Below the pieces are notes generated by a model, which saw nothing but the letters and a program-made list of their open reading frames with translations, made no database searches and was not told the origin of the DNA. Made by a program: the position numbers and the translations under genes. This document shows positions 1-23,718 of a stretch of DNA of 64,000 bases, piece after piece. Position 1 is the first letter of the stretch, and every line of letters begins with the position of its first letter. This stretch comes from Oricola sp. GTDB lineage: Bacteria > Pseudomonadota > Alphaproteobacteria > Rhizobiales > Rhizobiaceae. The stretch is taken from the NCBI RefSeq assembly GCF_022763245.1, contig NZ_JALEGV010000014.1, positions 62,001-126,000 on the forward strand. Reading direction: 5' to 3'.

Positions 1-161
1 GCTTTTACGCGGTGCAGCGCTTCGTGCTGGAATTCTGGAAGCCTTACGGAAGCGCAGTCGCGGGCCTTACGGTGTTCCAGCTGCTTTCCGTCGTGCTTCT
101 CGCCTACGCCGTTGTCATGGTCTCCACGGCCGATCGGGCAGCAGCCGGCGAACAGCCCTGA
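1..161 (+). CDS. Lgt-like membrane protein, C-terminal end (partial)
   Basis: The reading frame is open from the left edge (first full codon at base 3) and stops with TGA at 159-161, so only about 52 C-terminal residues are seen. They hold an R-F-V-L-E-F-W-K-P-Y segment followed by one hydrophobic helix ending near VVMVS. An arginine/glutamate-rich segment before a last transmembrane helix resembles the C-terminus of prolipoprotein diacylglyceryl transferase (Lgt) and its paralogs, which move a diacylglyceryl group from phosphatidylglycerol to a cysteine. The catalytic part lies outside the window, so this is a family guess. A nearby radical SAM gene of a lipid-coupling family on the same strand makes a lipid-related role attractive. 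Confidence 0.45.
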   Translation, partial: FYAVQRFVLEFWKPYGSAVAGLTVFQLLSVVLLAYAVVMVSTADRAAAGEQP

Positions 162-231
162 CGCGATTTCTTGTCGTCCGTGCGGAGACATGGTCTAGAT
201 TTGGCCAAACCTCTCCGACGAGGGTGCGGCG

Positions 232-483
232 ATGCACGACAGCGAAGACGAGACAGCGGTCAGACGATTCGGGTTCGGGCAGATCCTGCTCGGCATACTG
301 GGGCTGCTGCTGCTTCTGCCCGGCGCGTGCGGGGTTTTCGTCATCGCCCTCATCGTGAACGATCCGAACGATCCTTTCGTCGAGATCGGCGTGGCGTTCT
401 CCGTGCTCGGGCTTCTCGTCGGCGCCCTCGGCGTCTGGCTGCTGAGGCGGGTGATCCGCAACGCGCGAAGCGGACGGAGTTGA
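232..483 (+). CDS. small two-helix membrane protein (hypothetical)
   Basis: An 83-residue protein starting at ATG 232 after a GAGGG-like ribosome site. A charged N-terminus (about 12 residues) is followed by a long hydrophobic helix with the run LLGILGLLLLLPGACGV, a short polar loop containing NDPNDPF, a second helix, and an Arg-rich C-terminus. No family was recognised. The first helix closely matches that of the next small gene (LLGVLGVLLLLPGVC), so the two are probably paralogs. The gene lies between the Lgt-like gene and the radical SAM gene and could be co-transcribed with them. Function unknown. Confidence 0.6.
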   Translation: MHDSEDETAVRRFGFGQILLGILGLLLLLPGACGVFVIALIVNDPNDPFVEIGVAFSVLGLLVGALGVWLLRRVIRNARSGRS

Positions 484-571
484 CCCACACGCTCCCCTTC
501 CCGAACCTTGCCGTTTACGAAAGGCATGAAATCGCCGACCATATCGGTGATCGGCCGAAGAGGGTTCGTTG

Positions 572-754
572 ATGGTCGCAAGGGTTTTGTTGGGCGTGCT
601 CGGAGTACTTCTCCTCCTCCCGGGGGTCTGCAGCGTCGTCTTCATGGGCATGTTCGGGAATGACGGAGCCGGAATCCTCTGGCTGCTCTGGCTCGTCACT
701 TTCGCCATAGGCTGGGGCGGGTTCGTCCTGCTGCGCAAGGCCTGGCGGGGGTAG
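572..754 (+). CDS. small two-helix membrane protein, paralog of the preceding gene
   Basis: About 60 residues. ATG 572 is preferred because an AGAGGG ribosome site lies about 8 bases upstream; a TTG at 569 is the only earlier in-frame start. The protein is almost entirely two hydrophobic helices separated by a GNDGAG turn and ends in a basic tail (RKAWRG). Its first helix repeats the LLG-LG-LLLLPG-C pattern of the upstream 83-residue protein. The stop codon is two bases before the radical SAM start, so translational coupling is likely. No known family was recognised; a role as accessory membrane subunit or anchor for the radical SAM enzyme is only inference. Confidence 0.6.
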   Translation: MVARVLLGVLGVLLLLPGVCSVVFMGMFGNDGAGILWLLWLVTFAIGWGGFVLLRKAWRG

Positions 755-756
755 GC

Positions 757-2157
757 ATGAACGCGCCGTTGCGCAAGTCGCGCCCCTATCTGTTCCATGG
801 CCAGACCCAGTCGCTCTGCGAGACCTGCCTGAAGCTGGTGCCCGCCAAGATCCTGATCGACGGCGACGACGTCTGGTACCAGAAGCGCTGCCGCGAGCAC
901 GGCGTGCAGATGACGAAGATCTCGTCGGATGCCGCCTACTACAAGGCGGAACTCTCCTTCCTGAAGCCCGGCGACCGGCCGCTGGACGTGCAGACGCGGA
1001 CGGATTTCGGCTGCCCCTGGGATTGCGGCCTCTGCCCCGATCACGAGCAGCATTCATGCCTTGCGATCATCGAGGTCAACGAGGCCTGCAACCTGACCTG
1101 CCCGGTCTGTTTTGCCGGCTCATCGCAACAGGCGACGAAGCAGCTCGACCTGGCCACGATCGGCCGGATGATGGATGCGCTGGTCGCCAGCGAGGGCGAG
1201 CCGGACCTCCTGCAGCTTTCCGGCGGCGAACCGACCATCCATCCGGACATCCTGACGATCGTCGACATGGCGCGCGAGCGGCCGATCCGCCATCTGATGA
1301 TCAACACCAACGGGCTGCGCATCGCCTCCGATCCGAAATTCGCCGACGCGCTGGCGGAGCGGCGCAGGGGACTGGAGATCTATCTGCAGTTCGATTCTCT
1401 GAAGCCCGAGGCCCTTAGAGAGCTGCGCGGCGCGGATCTGTCCAAGGTCAGGCGCAATGCGCTCGAGGCATTAGAGGCGCGCGGCATCTCCACCACGCTG
1501 GTCTGCACAGTGAAGAAGGGCGTCAATGACGACGAGATGGGCGACATCATCGCGCATGCCCTGAGATATCGCTGCGTGCGCGGCGTCACCTTCCAGCCGA
1601 TCCAGGATACCGGGCGCAATCTCGGCTTCGAAGCGAAGACCGACCGGGTCCTGCTGACCGACATCCGCCGGCGGATTGTCGAAGACAGCGGGATCTTCGG
1701 CGAGGCGGACATGATCCCGCTGCCCTGCAACCCGACCGCGATCTGCATCGGCTACGGCTTGCGCAACGGCGAGCAGGTCATCCCGGTGACCGCGATGATC
1801 CCGAAGGACGAACTGGTCGCCGAATTGCCGAACGCCGTGACCTTCGAGCGCTATCCGATGCTGCGGGAGCGGATCTTCGACCTGTTTTCGCTGTCGACCA
1901 TCGAGCCCAATGCGGCGCAGCGCTTCGGCGACCTCCTGTGCTGCCTGCCGCAGGTGGCCGTGCCGGAGGGGCTCGGATATGAAAACGTCTTCCGCGTCGT
2001 CATTTCCAACTTCATGGACCGGTTCGATTTCTGTGTCGGGAACGTCAAGCGCTCCTGCGTCCACTTCGTCACGCCGGCCGGCCAGATCATCCCTTTCGAG
2101 ACCTACAACCTGTTCTATCGCAATGGCGAGATCGAGCGGATGCGCGGCGTCGGCTGA
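757..2157 (+). CDS. radical SAM enzyme, MJ0619/tetraether-synthase (Tes)-like
   Basis: A 466-residue protein. The N-terminus has a zinc-ribbon-like module (C21, C24, C45, H48), then the block CPWDCGLCPDHEQHSCL (cysteines 86-101), then the radical SAM cluster CNLTCPVC (C111, C115, C118) and a GGEP motif near residue 155 that typically binds SAM. The C-terminal part adds further cysteine pairs (PCNPTAIC, LLCCLP, FCVGNVKRSC), suggesting extra Fe-S clusters. This layout matches the family that includes the archaeal pterin methylase MJ0619 and tetraether lipid synthase Tes, which joins lipid tails carbon to carbon. The bacterial substrate is not known. Neighbours are an Lgt-like gene and two tiny membrane proteins, so a membrane lipid or lipoprotein substrate is a reasonable hypothesis. 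Confidence 0.85.
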   Translation: MNAPLRKSRPYLFHGQTQSLCETCLKLVPAKILIDGDDVWYQKRCREHGVQMTKISSDAAYYKAELSFLKPGDRPLDVQTRTDFGCPWDCGLCPDHEQHSCLAIIEVNEACNLTCPVCFAGSSQQATKQLDLATIGRMMDALVASEGEPDLLQLSGGEPTIHPDILTIVDMARERPIRHLMINTNGLRIASDPKFADALAERRRGLEIYLQFDSLKPEALRELRGADLSKVRRNALEALEARGISTTLVCTVKKGVNDDEMGDIIAHALRYRCVRGVTFQPIQDTGRNLGFEAKTDRVLLTDIRRRIVEDSGIFGEADMIPLPCNPTAICIGYGLRNGEQVIPVTAMIPKDELVAELPNAVTFERYPMLRERIFDLFSLSTIEPNAAQRFGDLLCCLPQVAVPEGLGYENVFRVVISNFMDRFDFCVGNVKRSCVHFVTPAGQIIPFETYNLFYRNGEIERMRGVG

Positions 2158-2229: not shown

Positions 2230-2292
2230 ATGAAAGATGACGATGTGTCCGGTCGGCGCGGAGTGCGCCTTGTCCAGGAGACCCCAACATGA
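2230..2292 (+). CDS. short upstream ORF overlapping the phoD start
   Basis: A 20-codon ORF starts at ATG 2230 with an AAAGG site about 8 bases upstream. It ends in a TGA that overlaps the phoD ATG as ATGA. The predicted peptide is hydrophilic (begins MKDDDVSGRRG) and has no signal. The phoD ribosome site (AGGAG, 2276-2280) lies inside this ORF. The arrangement looks like a translationally coupled leader, but nothing else proves expression; chance is possible. Confidence 0.3.
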   Translation: MKDDDVSGRRGVRLVQETPT

Positions 2293-3866
2293 CGAAACTG
2301 ACCCATCTGTCCCGCCGCGGCTTCATGGCGGGCGCCGGCGCGACGGCCCTTGTCGCCGGTTCCGGCCTCGCCCTTCCGTCCTATTTGCGCGCCAACCAGC
2401 GCCCGATCTTCTCGCACGGCGTCCAGTCGGGTGACGTGGACGCGTCTTCCGGCGTCATCTGGACGCGCACCGACCGCCCGGCCAAGGTGATGTTCGAGGT
2501 CGCCACCACCGAGAGCTTCAAGGACGCGCGCAAGCTCGCCGCGCTCGACGCGCTGCCGACCAGCGATTTCGCGGTCAAGCGCCTGCTCCAGGACCTGCCG
2601 TCCGACCAGGACGTCTTCTACCGCATGACCGCCGTCGACCTTTCCGACGCGAACGCCGTCTCCGAGCCGGTCACCGGCCGCTTCCGCACCGCGCCGATGT
2701 CGAAGCGCTCGGTCAAGTTCGCCTGGTCGGGCGACACCGCCGGCCAGGGCTGGGGCATCGACGACGAGGGCATGCTGACCTACGCGACCATGGCGAAGCA
2801 CGCGCCCGACTTCTTCATCCATTCCGGCGACACGATCTACGCCGACGGCCCGATGGCCGACGAGGTCGAGTTCAAGGACGGCACCAAGTGGGTCAACACG
2901 GTGCTGATCGACGAGAAGCGCAAGGTCGCCGAGACGCTGGACGAGTTCCGCGGCCAGTGGAAATACAACATGATGGACGCCCATGTGCGCGCCCTGTCGG
3001 AAATCTGCCCGACCTTCTACCAGTGGGACGACCACGAGGTCTGCAACAACTGGTCCTCGTCGAAGGACCTCTCCGGCGACGACCGCTACACCGAGAAATC
3101 CGTCGACCTGCTGCGCGCACGCGCCGGCCGCGCCTTCCACGAGATGAGCCCGATCCGCTACACGCCGGCCGAGCCGGGCCGCGTCTACCGCAAGATCGCC
3201 TACGGTCCGATGCTGGACGTGTTCTTCCTCGACCTGCGCTCCTATCGCGGCCCGAACGGTCCGGCGATGGAAACCGAGATGACGCCGGAAAGCCGCATTC
3301 TCGGCGCCGAGCAGGTGGCGTGGCTGAAGCGCGAGCTGACCAATTCGAAAGCCACCTGGAAAGTCATCGCCTGCGACATGCCGATCGGCCTGATCGTCTG
3401 GGACAACTGGGCCGAACAGGCCGGCGCGGAGGCGATCGCCAATGGCGACAACGGTCCGGCCAAGGGCCGCGAACTGGAAATCGCCGACCTGCTGCGCTTC
3501 ATCAAGACCGCCGGCGTGACCAACACGGTCTGGTTCACCGCCGACGTCCACTACACCGCGGCGCATTACTACAATCCGGACAAGGCGCAGTTCCAGGATT
3601 TCGATCCTTTCTGGGAATTCGTCTCCGGTCCGCTGCATGCCGGCACCTTCGGCCCGAACGGCCTCGACATGACGTTCGGCCCGGAAGTGAAGTTCGTGAA
3701 GGCACCGACCGCCGAGCAGGGCGCCAACCTGCCGCCCTCGGCGGGTCTGCAGTTCTTCGGCCTCGTCGACATCGACGGCGCGACGGAACAGATGACCGTG
3801 CGTCTGATGGACCGCGCCGACACTGAACTCTATGCGGTCACGCTGGATCCGGTGCGCGCCGGCTGA
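2289..3866 (+). CDS. phoD: alkaline phosphatase/phosphodiesterase PhoD, Tat-exported
   Basis: A 525-residue PhoD-family metallophosphoesterase, the usual family size. The N-terminus carries a twin-arginine signal (SRRGFMAG) followed by a hydrophobic stretch, so it is exported folded to the periplasm or beyond. The PhoD N-terminal domain (FSHGVQSGDV, WTRT) precedes the catalytic domain with metal-ligand motifs SGDT, HSGDTIYADGP, WDDHEV and FTADVHYTAA. Family members hydrolyse phosphomonoesters and phosphodiesters, using Fe/Ca in the best studied case, and release phosphate from organic sources. The start at ATG 2289 has a good AGGAG site. The gene stands alone and is closed by a strong terminator. 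PhoB control is expected for the family, but only a poor Pho-box match is visible upstream. Confidence 0.93.
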   Translation: MTKLTHLSRRGFMAGAGATALVAGSGLALPSYLRANQRPIFSHGVQSGDVDASSGVIWTRTDRPAKVMFEVATTESFKDARKLAALDALPTSDFAVKRLLQDLPSDQDVFYRMTAVDLSDANAVSEPVTGRFRTAPMSKRSVKFAWSGDTAGQGWGIDDEGMLTYATMAKHAPDFFIHSGDTIYADGPMADEVEFKDGTKWVNTVLIDEKRKVAETLDEFRGQWKYNMMDAHVRALSEICPTFYQWDDHEVCNNWSSSKDLSGDDRYTEKSVDLLRARAGRAFHEMSPIRYTPAEPGRVYRKIAYGPMLDVFFLDLRSYRGPNGPAMETEMTPESRILGAEQVAWLKRELTNSKATWKVIACDMPIGLIVWDNWAEQAGAEAIANGDNGPAKGRELEIADLLRFIKTAGVTNTVWFTADVHYTAAHYYNPDKAQFQDFDPFWEFVSGPLHAGTFGPNGLDMTFGPEVKFVKAPTAEQGANLPPSAGLQFFGLVDIDGATEQMTVRLMDRADTELYAVTLDPVRAG

Positions 3867-4686: not shown

Positions 4687-5841
4687 ATGCCTGACCAGAT
4701 GCAGCGGATAGACCTGGTGCGGGCGCGTTACGACGCGCTCGTCGCCGAGGGCAAGCTCGATCCCGATTCCGCGCAGGAAGCGCTCGCCAGCCGTTTCGAC
4801 GCGCTGAACGAGCAGATCGGCTCGCTGCGGCTTGCCGCGAAATCCTCTTCGCTCGGCTGGCTGTTCGCGCGGCGCGCGCCCAAGCCCGAAACCGTCAAGG
4901 GTCTCTATGTCCACGGCCATGTCGGGCGTGGCAAGACCATGCTGATGGACTTCTTCTTCGCGGCCTGCCCGGCCAAGCGCAAGCGCCGCGCCCATTTCAA
5001 CGATTTCATGGCGGACGTGCATGACCGCATCGCCGCCCACCGCGCCGCACTGAAGAACGGCGAGGTCAAGGGCGACGATCCGATCCCGCCGGTGGCGCGC
5101 GACATCGCCAAGCAATCGCGCGTCTTGTGCTTCGACGAGTTCTCGGTCACCGACATCGCGGACGCGATGATCCTGTCGCGCCTGTTCACCGCTCTGTTCG
5201 AGAACGGCGTCATCCTTGTGGCCACCTCCAACGTGGCGCCGGGCGACCTTTATCGCGATGGGCTCAATCGCGGCCTGTTCCTGCCGTTCATCGACGTCCT
5301 GCTCGCCCATACGCAAGTCATGAGCCTCGACGCCGATCGCGACTATCGCCTCGACCGGCTGGGGCGCTCGAAACTCTACGTCTCGCCGCTGGGCGTGGCG
5401 GCCGACGCGGCCATCGAAGAGGTCTGGACGCGGCTGACCGGCGGCGTGGCTGCGCATCGCGAACTGATCGAGGTGAAGGGCCACGAGATCGTCGTGCCGG
5501 CCGTCGTCATGGGTGCGGCCCGATTCTCTTTCCCCGACCTGTGCGAGAAGCCGCTCGGCGCGCGGGACTTCCTGGCGCTGGCGCGCAACTACCACACCAT
5601 CTTCGTGGAGCGCGTGCCGATCATGCGCGAAGGCCGCCGCAACGAGGCGAAACGGTTCATCACCCTGGTCGACACGCTCTACGACAACCGCATCCGCCTC
5701 GTCGTCTCCGCGGAGGCGGAGCCGGACCAGCTCTATCAGGCGAAGACCGGCGTGGAGGTGTTCGAGTTCGACCGCACGGTCTCGCGGCTGATCGAGATGC
5801 GCTCGGAAGCCTGGGTGGCGCAGGCGGGCGAGGCCGGGTGA
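4687..5841 (+). CDS. zapE: cell division ATPase ZapE (AFG1-like)
   Basis: A 384-residue AFG1/LACE1-family P-loop ATPase. Walker A is GHVGRGKT (77-84) and Walker B is VLCFDEF (Asp150-Glu151); a sensor-like VATSN follows. In enterobacteria ZapE associates with the Z-ring and affects constriction; in mitochondria the homolog acts in protein quality control. No signal or transmembrane segment is seen, so it is cytoplasmic. Placement directly upstream of mdh-suc genes is usual in rhizobia. Its stop codon overlaps the GTG start of the VOC gene (GTGA), suggesting translational coupling. Confidence 0.9.
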   Translation: MPDQMQRIDLVRARYDALVAEGKLDPDSAQEALASRFDALNEQIGSLRLAAKSSSLGWLFARRAPKPETVKGLYVHGHVGRGKTMLMDFFFAACPAKRKRRAHFNDFMADVHDRIAAHRAALKNGEVKGDDPIPPVARDIAKQSRVLCFDEFSVTDIADAMILSRLFTALFENGVILVATSNVAPGDLYRDGLNRGLFLPFIDVLLAHTQVMSLDADRDYRLDRLGRSKLYVSPLGVAADAAIEEVWTRLTGGVAAHRELIEVKGHEIVVPAVVMGAARFSFPDLCEKPLGARDFLALARNYHTIFVERVPIMREGRRNEAKRFITLVDTLYDNRIRLVVSAEAEPDQLYQAKTGVEVFEFDRTVSRLIEMRSEAWVAQAGEAG

Positions 5842-20832: not shown

Positions 20833-21408
20833 ATGACAAAACCCGACAATCCGGTGCTGATGGGCGTGATCGGCGCGCCGCATGGCGTGCGCGGCGAATT
20901 GCGCGTGAAGCCCTACACGGCCGATCCGATGGCGCTGGGCGATTACGGTACGCTTTTCGACAGCGAGGGCCGCGCCTTCGACGTCATCGAGATCCGGCCG
21001 CAGAAGACCGTGGTGGTCGTCACCTTCGAACAGGTGCGCGACCGGTCGCAGGCCGAGGCGCTCAACGGCGTGGAACTGTTCATCTCGCGCGACCAGTTGC
21101 CCGACGAGGAGCTGGAGGAGGACGAGTTCTTCGTCGCCGACCTGGTCGGTCTGGACGCGCATGACGAAACCGGCGCCAAGACCGGGCAGGTGATCGCCGT
21201 GCACAATTTCGGCGCCGGTGACCTGCTGGAGGTCGCCCCGGTCACGCCGGGTGGCGGGCTGGCGCGCAAGCGCGCCTTCCTGGTGGAATTCTCGCTGGAG
21301 ACCGTGCCCGACATCGATTTCGAAGGGGGCCGGCTGACCCTGATCCGCCCGCACGAGATCGAGGCGCGCGGCGAGGAGGCCGACACGGCCGAGGACGGCG
21401 AGGCATGA
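20833..21408 (+). CDS. rimM: ribosome maturation factor RimM
   Basis: A 191-residue protein starting at ATG 20833. The N-terminal RimM barrel ([22 protein letters not shown]) and the C-terminal PRC-like barrel ([13 protein letters not shown]...[15 protein letters not shown]) are both present. It assists 30S subunit assembly, binding S19. It overlaps the trmD start by four bases (ATGA), the usual rimM-trmD coupling. Confidence 0.95.
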
Positions 21409-22088
21409 GCTTTCGCGCAACCGTGCTGACGCTCTACCCGGAGATGTTTCCGGGCACGCTCGGCCAGGCGCTGGCCGGCAAGGCCCTGGCGCGTGGCGAC
21501 TGGTCGCTCGACGCCGTACAGATCCGCGATTACGCCACCGACCGGCACAGGAGCGTGGATGACACGCCGGCCGGCGGCGGGGCCGGCATGGTGATGCGCG
21601 CCGACGTGCTCGCCGCGGCGCTCGACGCCAATGCCGGCACGGACGATCCGCGTCCGCGCCTCTTGATGAGCCCGCGCGGCGCGCCTTTGACTCAGGCGCG
21701 CGTGCGCGATCTCGCGGCCGGTCCGGGCGCCGTCATCGTCTGCGGGCGCTTCGAGGGCGTCGACCAGCGGGTGATCGAGGGCCGCGATCTGGAGGAGGTC
21801 TCCATCGGCGATTACGTGCTGTCCGGCGGCGAGGTCGCTGCGCAGGTGCTGCTCGACGCCGTCATCCGCCTGTTGCCCGGCGTCATGGGCAATGCGCAAT
21901 CCGGCGAGACGGAGAGCTTCGAAGGCAATCTCCTCGAACACCCGCATTACACCCGTCCCGCCGAATGGGAGGGCCGGACGATCCCCGAGGTTCTGACCTC
22001 CGGCAATCACGCGAAGATCGATCAATGGCGGCGCGAGGAAGCGGAGAAGCTGACACGGGACCGCCGACCCGACCTGCTGGACGGCTGA
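21405..22088 (+). CDS. trmD: tRNA (guanine37-N1)-methyltransferase TrmD
   Basis: A 227-residue SPOUT methyltransferase. [12 protein letters not shown], the SAM-binding trefoil knot with [24 protein letters not shown] and [11 protein letters not shown], and the C-terminal [19 protein letters not shown] are all conserved. It methylates G37 of tRNAs that read CNN codons, preventing frameshifts. It ends 12 bases before a convergent TauE gene; rplS, usually next in this operon, lies 1.1 kb further on. Confidence 0.96.
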
Positions 22089-22844: not shown

Positions 22845-23190
22845 GGGTTTCGCTTCTCGGGGCGCAATGCCCGTCTCCGCCTAGCCGACCGGGCGGCCGG
22901 TGCGCAAGCTGCGTGGAGACAAACCGCGTGTTGGGCGGCCGAGCGCGGGGCAATCCGGTGACTGGTGAGAGATGACCGGATTCGGCCGATACTTTGCCGA
23001 GCACCAAAAGGGCGTGACAAAACCACCTTTCTCCTGTAAGCACCCGCGGAAATCGGGCGCCAAGTCCTGACTCAACAGCAAATACGATCTCGTGAATACG
23101 CTCCGGCCTTCGGGCCAGGCATGACGGTCAATTGACTTTCAGCCCTTGTCGAGCGCTCTGGCGGTTCAAAAGAACAAGAGGAAGTAAATC
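22845..23190. promoter_or_regulatory. divergent intergenic region between the TauE gene and rplS
   Basis: 346 bases without a convincing ORF. It must hold promoters for the leftward TauE gene and the rightward rplS. A TTGACT hexamer at 23132-23137 could be a -35 element, but no good -10 follows it. A small hairpin (GGCC-TTCG-GGCC, about 23106-23117) lies in the rplS leader. The rplS ribosome site is AGAGGAAG, seven bases before ATG. Confidence 0.4.
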
Positions 23191-23718
23191 ATGACGGACA
23201 TCATCCGCCAGCTCGAGGCCGAACAGGCCGCCAAGATCATCGAAAAGCGCACCCTGCCGGAATTTTCGCCCGGCGACACCGTCCGCGTCCAAGTGCGCGT
23301 CACGGAAGGCAAGCGCACCCGTCTGCAGGCCTATGAAGGCGTTTGCATCGCCCGCGCCGGCGCCGGCTTCAACGAGAACTTCACCGTTCGCAAGATTTCC
23401 TACGGCGAAGGCGTGGAGCGCGTGTTCCCCGTCTATTCGCCGCTGGTCGAGGCCGTCGAAGTCGTTCGCCGAGGCAAGGTGCGCCGCGCCAAGCTCTATT
23501 ACATGCGCGGCCTGACGGGCAAAAAGGCCCGTATCACCGAGAACACCAACGCCCGTTCGCGCAAGCTGAACGACGATGAGCGCCGCAAGATCGCCGAGGA
23601 AAAGGCCCGCATCGAGGCCGAGAAGATCGCAGCCGCCGAGGCTCTGGCCGCCGAGAAGGCAGCAGAGGAAGCAGCAGCCAAGGCCGCTCAAGCCGAAGCA
23701 GGCGCAGAAGACGCATAA
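23191..23718 (+). CDS. rplS: 50S ribosomal protein L19
   Basis: A 175-residue L19. The conserved core (residues 1-120) has [25 protein letters not shown] and [30 protein letters not shown]. The last 50 residues are a Lys/Glu/Ala-rich extension, common in alphaproteobacterial L19 but absent from the shorter E. coli protein. L19 sits at the 30S-50S interface. A strong terminator closes the transcript. Confidence 0.97.

Follow-up and report, generated by a model that had tools for sequence, protein, structure and literature searches.

A Tes-like radical SAM enzyme, a divergent Lgt paralog and small G-x-C membrane proteins form a conserved bacterial gene set that may serve protein lipidation

Why should a bacterium encode a relative of an archaeal lipid enzyme next to a paralog of Lgt, which is known to hand its lipid to a cysteine in a protein? 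The question is raised by a 64,000-nucleotide stretch of Oricola sp. DNA (Alphaproteobacteria, Rhizobiaceae; assembly GCF_022763245.1, contig NZ_JALEGV010000014.1, positions 62,001 to 126,000), referred to here in its full length as the window. The window opens with four genes, all on the plus strand and in this order: the 3' end of an Lgt-like gene (3-161), two genes for small membrane proteins (232-483 and 569-754) and a gene for a radical S-adenosylmethionine (SAM) enzyme (757-2157) resembling tetraether lipid synthase (Tes), which couples lipids through carbon-carbon bonds. An earlier note on this DNA had proposed a lipid- or lipoprotein-coupling reaction; such a reaction fits the comparative evidence presented below, although the Tes name itself does not apply to the enzyme, whose score stays under that family's cut-off. 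The Lgt-like gene, the Tes-like gene and the small-protein genes are well shown to form a conserved, co-inherited three-part gene set, and both the set and its joint inheritance were computed directly, as were the folds predicted for the enzymes, their conserved ligands and the G-x-C motif of the small proteins with its placement. What the set does is judged at about even chances to be dedicated protein lipidation, in which the Lgt-like enzyme would lipidate the G-x-C cysteine and the Tes-like enzyme would remodel the lipid.

The radical SAM protein (466 residues) carries the Pfam domains Zn_ribbon_HMPTM and Radical_SAM, and by sequence no PDB entry but Tes (7tol/7tom) is strongly related to it; at E 1e-10 or better its profile matches Tes alone (E 1.7e-86). 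The predicted structure (mean predicted local distance difference test score, pLDDT, 79) was matched in Foldseek by 7tom and 7tol with a template modeling (TM) score of 0.80 by query length and E 1e-33, the remaining 48 rows among the matches listed having TM scores of 0.38 or less. In the same genome, the sole further match to the enzyme (31% identity over 164 residues) looks by inspection like MoaA. The Tes/MJ0619 kinship claimed in the earlier note is thus upheld, with the correction that Tes and MJ0619, there treated as two families, are one protein according to one of its discovery papers (PMC9433317). That report assigns to Tes a rubredoxin-type iron bound through C9-x2-C12-x20-C33-x2-H36, an auxiliary cluster bound through C73, C77, C80 and a histidine, and a CX3CX2C radical SAM motif (PMC9433317). 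The corresponding ligands are all present in the window protein and invariant in 21 of 21 aligned relatives: a rubredoxin-like site with identical spacing, C21-x2-C24-x20-C45-x2-H48 (817-900); the N-terminal auxiliary [4Fe-4S] ligands C86, C90, C93 and H96 (1012-1044), spaced as Tes C73/C77/C80, H96 being the likely counterpart of the Tes histidine; and the CX3CX2C cysteines C111, C115 and C118 (1087-1110). In addition, a C-terminal region (1726-2058) contains the invariant residues C324, C395, C396 and C434, candidate ligands that could serve a third cluster. All 21 relatives match both the Tes and the TrsS models of NCBIfam (E up to 1e-20), the comparison with the Tes cut-off covering the first member of the alignment. 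For the window protein, the best-scoring NCBIfam model was TrsS, a radical SAM (seleno)protein family (NF045646; 300 bits, cut-off 490), followed by Tes (NF045702) with 260 bits where 450 are required; the protein can take neither name.

The upstream gene was completed with bases fetched from before the window: it lies at 16449-17162 of L003 (the window's own locus), starts 552 bases before the window and encodes 237 residues. As the earlier note had supposed, it is Lgt-like, scoring 63.6 bits against Pfam LGT (PF01790; gathering cut-off 24.9), and by sequence it is a divergent Lgt. An ordinary second lgt stands on another contig of the genome, with 257.7 bits as against 62.5 for the Lgt-like gene. 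The predicted protein has the Lgt fold; E. coli Lgt was absent among the 50 Foldseek rows listed but was matched by VIA-align, and in the PDB the single sequence matched no chain with phmmer, while its profile did. Two arginines of Lgt, R143 and R239, are kept in 85 of 85 Lgt-like proteins (as R115 and R191, mapped by motif and alignment), and R246 is replaced by an invariant lysine, K198. The canonical signature GRLGNFINGELWG is likewise replaced, by G-R-x-G-C-x3-G-x2-D-x-T-x-G, with a loop three residues longer and all named residues invariant (85/85). One Lgt-like gene (G113:C311:15702-16397) has an in-frame TAA.

The two enzymes travel together to a striking degree. In a genome scan, the best 80 of 218 places encoding a radical SAM relative were analysed along with the window's own locus, and the Lgt-like gene was found in 72 of these 81 loci, making it the only widely common family besides the radical SAM enzyme itself and shadow frames; the next real shared family was restricted to cyanobacterial loci. 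With a better search and ten added loci, the Lgt-like gene was found to start at most 3.5 kb upstream of the radical SAM gene in 81 of 91 loci. Among the other ten, two contigs begin just before the radical SAM gene, and the eight remaining genomes all still encode the Lgt-like gene, either elsewhere or, at locus L084, slightly further away. Before counting, L155 was dropped because its DNA is that of L024, and L160 because its DNA is that of L066. Cyanobacterial loci more than 97% alike, of which there are three pairs, were all counted, as were some of the ten new loci that are mutually close.

Co-occurrence in relatives, proposed as a check in the earlier note, was then borne out at the level of whole genomes. 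In the order (249 genomes), the Lgt-like gene (E<1e-80) and the radical SAM gene (E<1e-200) are found in the same 11 genomes, at most about 0.6 kb apart in every carrier; ordinary Lgt matches begin only at E 1.2e-19 in the Lgt-like search, and nine further genomes encode distant radical SAM relatives alone (E 1e-126 to 1e-71), with no Lgt-like gene. Across the phylum (299 genomes), both genes occur in the same 9 (E<=1e-110 and E<=1e-40), four of which also belong to the order set. In the cyanobacterial phylum (194 genomes, drawn around a carrier), 8 genomes have the radical SAM gene, and 7 of these 8 also have the Lgt-like gene. In a quick tree, 29 paired radical SAM proteins (counting that of the eighth cyanobacterial carrier, G528, whose genome is without the Lgt-like gene) form one clade with a Shimodaira-Hasegawa-like approximate likelihood ratio test (SH-aLRT) value of 99, separate from Tes and from nine relatives of genomes without the Lgt-like gene; the enzyme is therefore not placed with an unrelated known substrate, another point on which the note had asked for a phylogeny. 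Tree distances of the two enzymes correlate at r 0.90 over 85 loci and at 0.87 within 54 alphaproteobacterial loci, a value that none of 1000 permutations reached. Two other arrangements came to light during this comparison. A distant radical SAM relative at L142:3198-4718 (36% identity, no Lgt-like gene) stands directly before a gene at 4720-5544 that we take to be methyltransferase-like, and at L144:1933-5800 the order has Tes-like radical SAM proteins of a further branch, flanked by what appear to be a MobA-type nucleotidyltransferase upstream and an adenylate-forming enzyme downstream.

The tiny proteins appear to be the key to the system, and their conserved G-x-C motif suggests that they are lipid acceptors. 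Both small reading frames in the window behave as genuine genes would, with ratios of nonsynonymous to synonymous substitution (dN/dS) of 0.40 (232-483, 83 residues) and 0.14 (569-754, 61 residues, an ATG at 572 being an equally likely start) relative to locus L005. The two proteins, proposed here as putative lipid acceptors, share the string LLLLPGxC; in the first, the motif follows a hydrophobic helix as G31-A-C33 (codons at 322-330), C33 being the cysteine proposed to be modified, and in the second it reads G-V-C (623-631). When the entire genome is searched with a profile of 15 small proteins, including these two, nothing but these two is retrieved, even with E allowed up to 10. Weak Pfam matches of the small proteins (holin-like, DUFs) lay below the cut-offs and were set aside.

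Inspection of the neighbourhoods brought up many small membrane open reading frames (ORFs) in which G-x-C closes a hydrophobic helix, and a search rule derived from these first loci found 101 such ORFs near the enzyme pair on the same strand, 1 nearby on the opposite strand, and 2 and 3 in the flanks (378 kb scanned near, 579 kb far). In ten new genomes, with loci at most 78% identical in DNA to earlier ones, this rule was positive in 8. After it had been relaxed in the light of near-misses (length limit, one charged position), 136 G-x-C sites in 127 ORFs were counted beside the pair on the same strand, against 1 on the opposite strand and 2 and 3 in the flanks, with 88 of 91 loci covered, including all ten new ones. 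Applied unchanged to 11 further distinct loci, the relaxed rule was positive in 7, so that, overall, 95 of 102 distinct loci have a small G-x-C membrane protein next to the enzyme pair; none was found at three loci where a distant radical SAM relative occurs and the Lgt-like gene is absent. An opposite-strand match at locus L157 (minus strand near 2461) resembles an ordinary lipoprotein signal (LGGC), which implies that the scan also catches normal lipoproteins. Control strings gave weaker contrasts, with GxS at 39/10/19/8 and GxA at 69/9/45/44 (near same strand, near opposite strand, far same strand, far opposite strand) relative to 136/1/2/3 for G-x-C, the sharpest among the strings tried if not the sole enriched one. 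It is at this point that chance can be weighed as an explanation, with a spare Lgt, an unrelated radical SAM enzyme and overlapping ORFs happening to be neighbours. The patchy distribution (11 of 249 order genomes) is all that speaks for it, and the near-perfect co-occurrence in samples of two phyla, the closeness of the genes and the strand and position contrast of the motif make it exceedingly improbable.

The motif is shared by small proteins of different build. Those of the Alphaproteobacteria are mostly two-helix proteins; those of the betaproteobacterial loci inspected are encoded either ahead of both enzymes or in between; and in cyanobacteria a three-helix protein carries the motif in its last helix. 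Taken over all lineages together, 35 of 88 loci have two or three G-x-C ORFs. In an alignment of 15 alpha- and betaproteobacterial proteins, invariance is confined to M1, G31 and C33 (mean column identity 22%), the glycine and cysteine partly by construction, as these proteins had been selected for G-x-C; the cyanobacterial cluster is free of that choice, having been collected by sequence similarity, and shows the motif in 29 of 29 members. This cluster (cluster 6) proved real, and other ORF "families" met in the grouping (e.g., clusters 1, 3-5 and 7-10) were rejected as antisense or out-of-frame ORFs, apparently shadows cast by the reading frames of the two large genes.

At 114 of 134 sites, the last lysine or arginine stands 14-15 or 18-19 residues before the glycine. 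Net charge falls across the helix in 110 of 133, stays equal in 11 and rises in 12, a pattern that, by the positive-inside rule, puts the cysteine near the outer face of the membrane. The middle residue of the motif is free, the position just before the cysteine being leucine in 58 of 134 sites. Small proteins adjoining radical SAM enzymes are often precursors, and the same data must therefore be read with a second possibility in mind, namely that the small protein is itself what the radical SAM enzyme acts on, receiving a crosslink or thioether at G-x-C in the manner of ribosomally synthesized and post-translationally modified peptides (RiPPs), while the Lgt-like enzyme lipidates another site or only binds the precursor. 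The strong divergence around the motif would suit a precursor, as would the ATGA-type overlap of a downstream small ORF with the radical SAM stop codon, seen in 46 of the 80 loci having a downstream copy. However, a motif near the outer face lies away from the cytoplasm, the site of iron-sulfur enzymes, the radical SAM enzyme shares its cluster and rubredoxin ligands with a lipid enzyme, Tes, and a free middle residue is hard to square with such a modification; we regard it as an unlikely account. For lipidation of the G-x-C cysteine, the outer face is where Lgt is reported to meet its substrate (PMC8048626, PMC4728403).

Seven loci were left without G-x-C. In five of them (L070 and L163-L166), the operon includes a gene for a prolipoprotein-like protein, 62-184 residues long and built from a hydrophobic stretch, a cysteine and a polar, mostly proline-rich part; the sequences around the cysteine, such as AWFASEACS and GWFATQACF, are not lipoboxes either. 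A sixth, L083, encodes a similar helix with A-T-C.

Taken as a whole, an Lgt paralog as partner and a cysteine placed like that of a lipobox lead to the simplest reading, in which the cysteine receives a diacylglyceryl group. In the first step, for which the comparative evidence is strong, the Lgt-like enzyme would transfer diacylglyceryl from a phospholipid, probably phosphatidylglycerol, to the G-x-C cysteine at the outer end of the helix or, in some lineages, to a prolipoprotein-like protein with an odd lipobox. In the second, proposed with less assurance, the Tes-like enzyme, which keeps the Tes plan, would probably act on hydrocarbon tails, either those of the lipid on the protein or those of the lipid that donates it. 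Its most likely reaction would be a carbon-carbon coupling that, as in Tes, employs the auxiliary cluster; the two steps might follow one another in either order. It is tempting to go further and suggest that the enzyme joins a protein-bound tail to the tail of another lipid, creating a covalent lipid-protein rivet able to span the membrane, a tentative idea that we would not expect to hold in this specific form.

The product of the two enzymes might instead be a free membrane lipid in altered form, either branched or spanning the membrane, with the small proteins as helper subunits that hold the lipid or the enzymes and with their cysteine in a structural role. Tes is described as acting on free phospholipids (PMC9433317), the structural model of the radical SAM enzyme agrees with Tes over its length, and the tiny proteins, two in the window and up to three at other loci, are present as helpers might be. 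Yet such an arrangement would leave unexplained both the cysteine at the outer helix end, common to different kinds of small protein and to the prolipoprotein-like ones, and the recruitment of an Lgt paralog; it is given a low probability.

Several observations weigh against the proposed lipidation system. The equivalent of H103 in the HGGL motif, essential in E. coli Lgt (PMC4728403), is V in 47, A in 20, L in 9, E in 8 and I in 1 of 85 Lgt-like proteins and never His, and N146 is replaced by an invariant cysteine, C118; the Lgt-like enzyme may, on these substitutions, catalyse another reaction. Genome G528 has only an ordinary Lgt with its radical SAM enzyme and a small prolipoprotein-like protein. 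Met439 and Tyr459, invariant in archaeal Tes, are not kept, apparently corresponding to S417 and F437 in columns that vary among the 21 relatives (placed by alignment to Tes, the paper's numbering being shifted by 20), although the Tes variants M439A, Y459F and Y459L are reported to remain functional (PMC9433317), and an enzyme lacking both residues might therefore still couple carbons. The G-x-C rule, as noted, was drawn from the first loci and later loosened, and two further control strings are enriched too (GxG at 118/4/21/14 and GxF at 53/2/8/7, in the order given above), probably owing to the glycine- and phenylalanine-rich composition of the same small proteins. None of the 134 G-x-C sites matches the lipobox [LV][ASTVI][GAS]C, compared in the wider form [LVI][ASTVI][GAS]C, because the search demands glycine two residues before the cysteine, a position at which the lipobox class does not admit it. 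Finally, the prolipoprotein-like class was recognised after the fact and is uncontrolled, and at the seventh locus, L084, neither a G-x-C nor a prolipoprotein-like small protein was seen.

Comparison with known systems places the gene set near several of them. It shares with archaeal Tes (GDGT-MAS, MJ0619) the fold, the radical SAM cluster and the rubredoxin-like and N-terminal auxiliary sites with their spacing; unlike Tes, the enzyme is bacterial, falls in a clade of its own and is nearly always accompanied by an Lgt paralog and small cysteine proteins. Relative to canonical Lgt, a normal copy of which the genome also keeps, the paralog differs in H103, N146 (C118), R246 (K198) and the length of the signature loop. 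DAG-RiPPs, the RiPP-lipoprotein hybrids described in PMC12636315, are likewise small gene-encoded peptides that are both lipidated at cysteine and modified by a metalloenzyme, and may by analogy offer a precedent in principle; as described there, they use MNIO enzymes and the ordinary lipoprotein pathway with its signal peptides, in contrast to the dedicated Lgt paralog, Tes-like enzyme and non-lipobox acceptors found here. On mobile elements, Lgt2 also stands beside another lipid enzyme, in this case the transacylase Lit2, with which it is co-transcribed along with copper resistance rather than with a radical SAM gene (PMC8275575). Bacterial homologues of Tes have been recorded since 2022: one discovery paper counts 456 with no assigned function and suggests branched tetraethers (PMC8941075), the other likewise mentions them and assigns them no function (PMC9433317), and a later survey lists further ones in other phyla (PMC11868695). 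PMC8939145, which uses related wording, deals with other peptides and was set aside. No description of the gene set was recognised in the searches made, which were confined to open-access papers.

The surroundings of the system were also inspected. Directly upstream of the Lgt-like gene, at L003:16001-16420, lies what looks like ribosomal protein S16, and presumed TrmD and ribosomal protein L19 genes stand at 21222-22085 and 23188-23715 of the window. They are thus some 21-23 kb beyond S16, and a usually tight operon seems to have been split by the stretch bearing the system. Downstream of the radical SAM gene are genes that look to us like a PhoD-like alkaline phosphatase (2289-3866) and a ZapE-like ATPase (4687-5841); with nine loci checked besides the window, the former is present in L003, L005, L006 and L137, and the latter was seen again in L005. 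A search with Rfam at gathering scores gave no match in the window.

The novelty lies in the system, its two enzymes being new branches of known superfamilies. One large branch of bacterial Tes homologues thereby gains a partner enzyme and a likely substrate, which makes the question of its function directly testable. If the proposed reading is true, protein lipidation would not be a single pathway with a single lipobox; instead, some bacteria would run a second, dedicated route, which would recognise an acceptor motif of its own and be linked to a radical reaction that alters the lipid.

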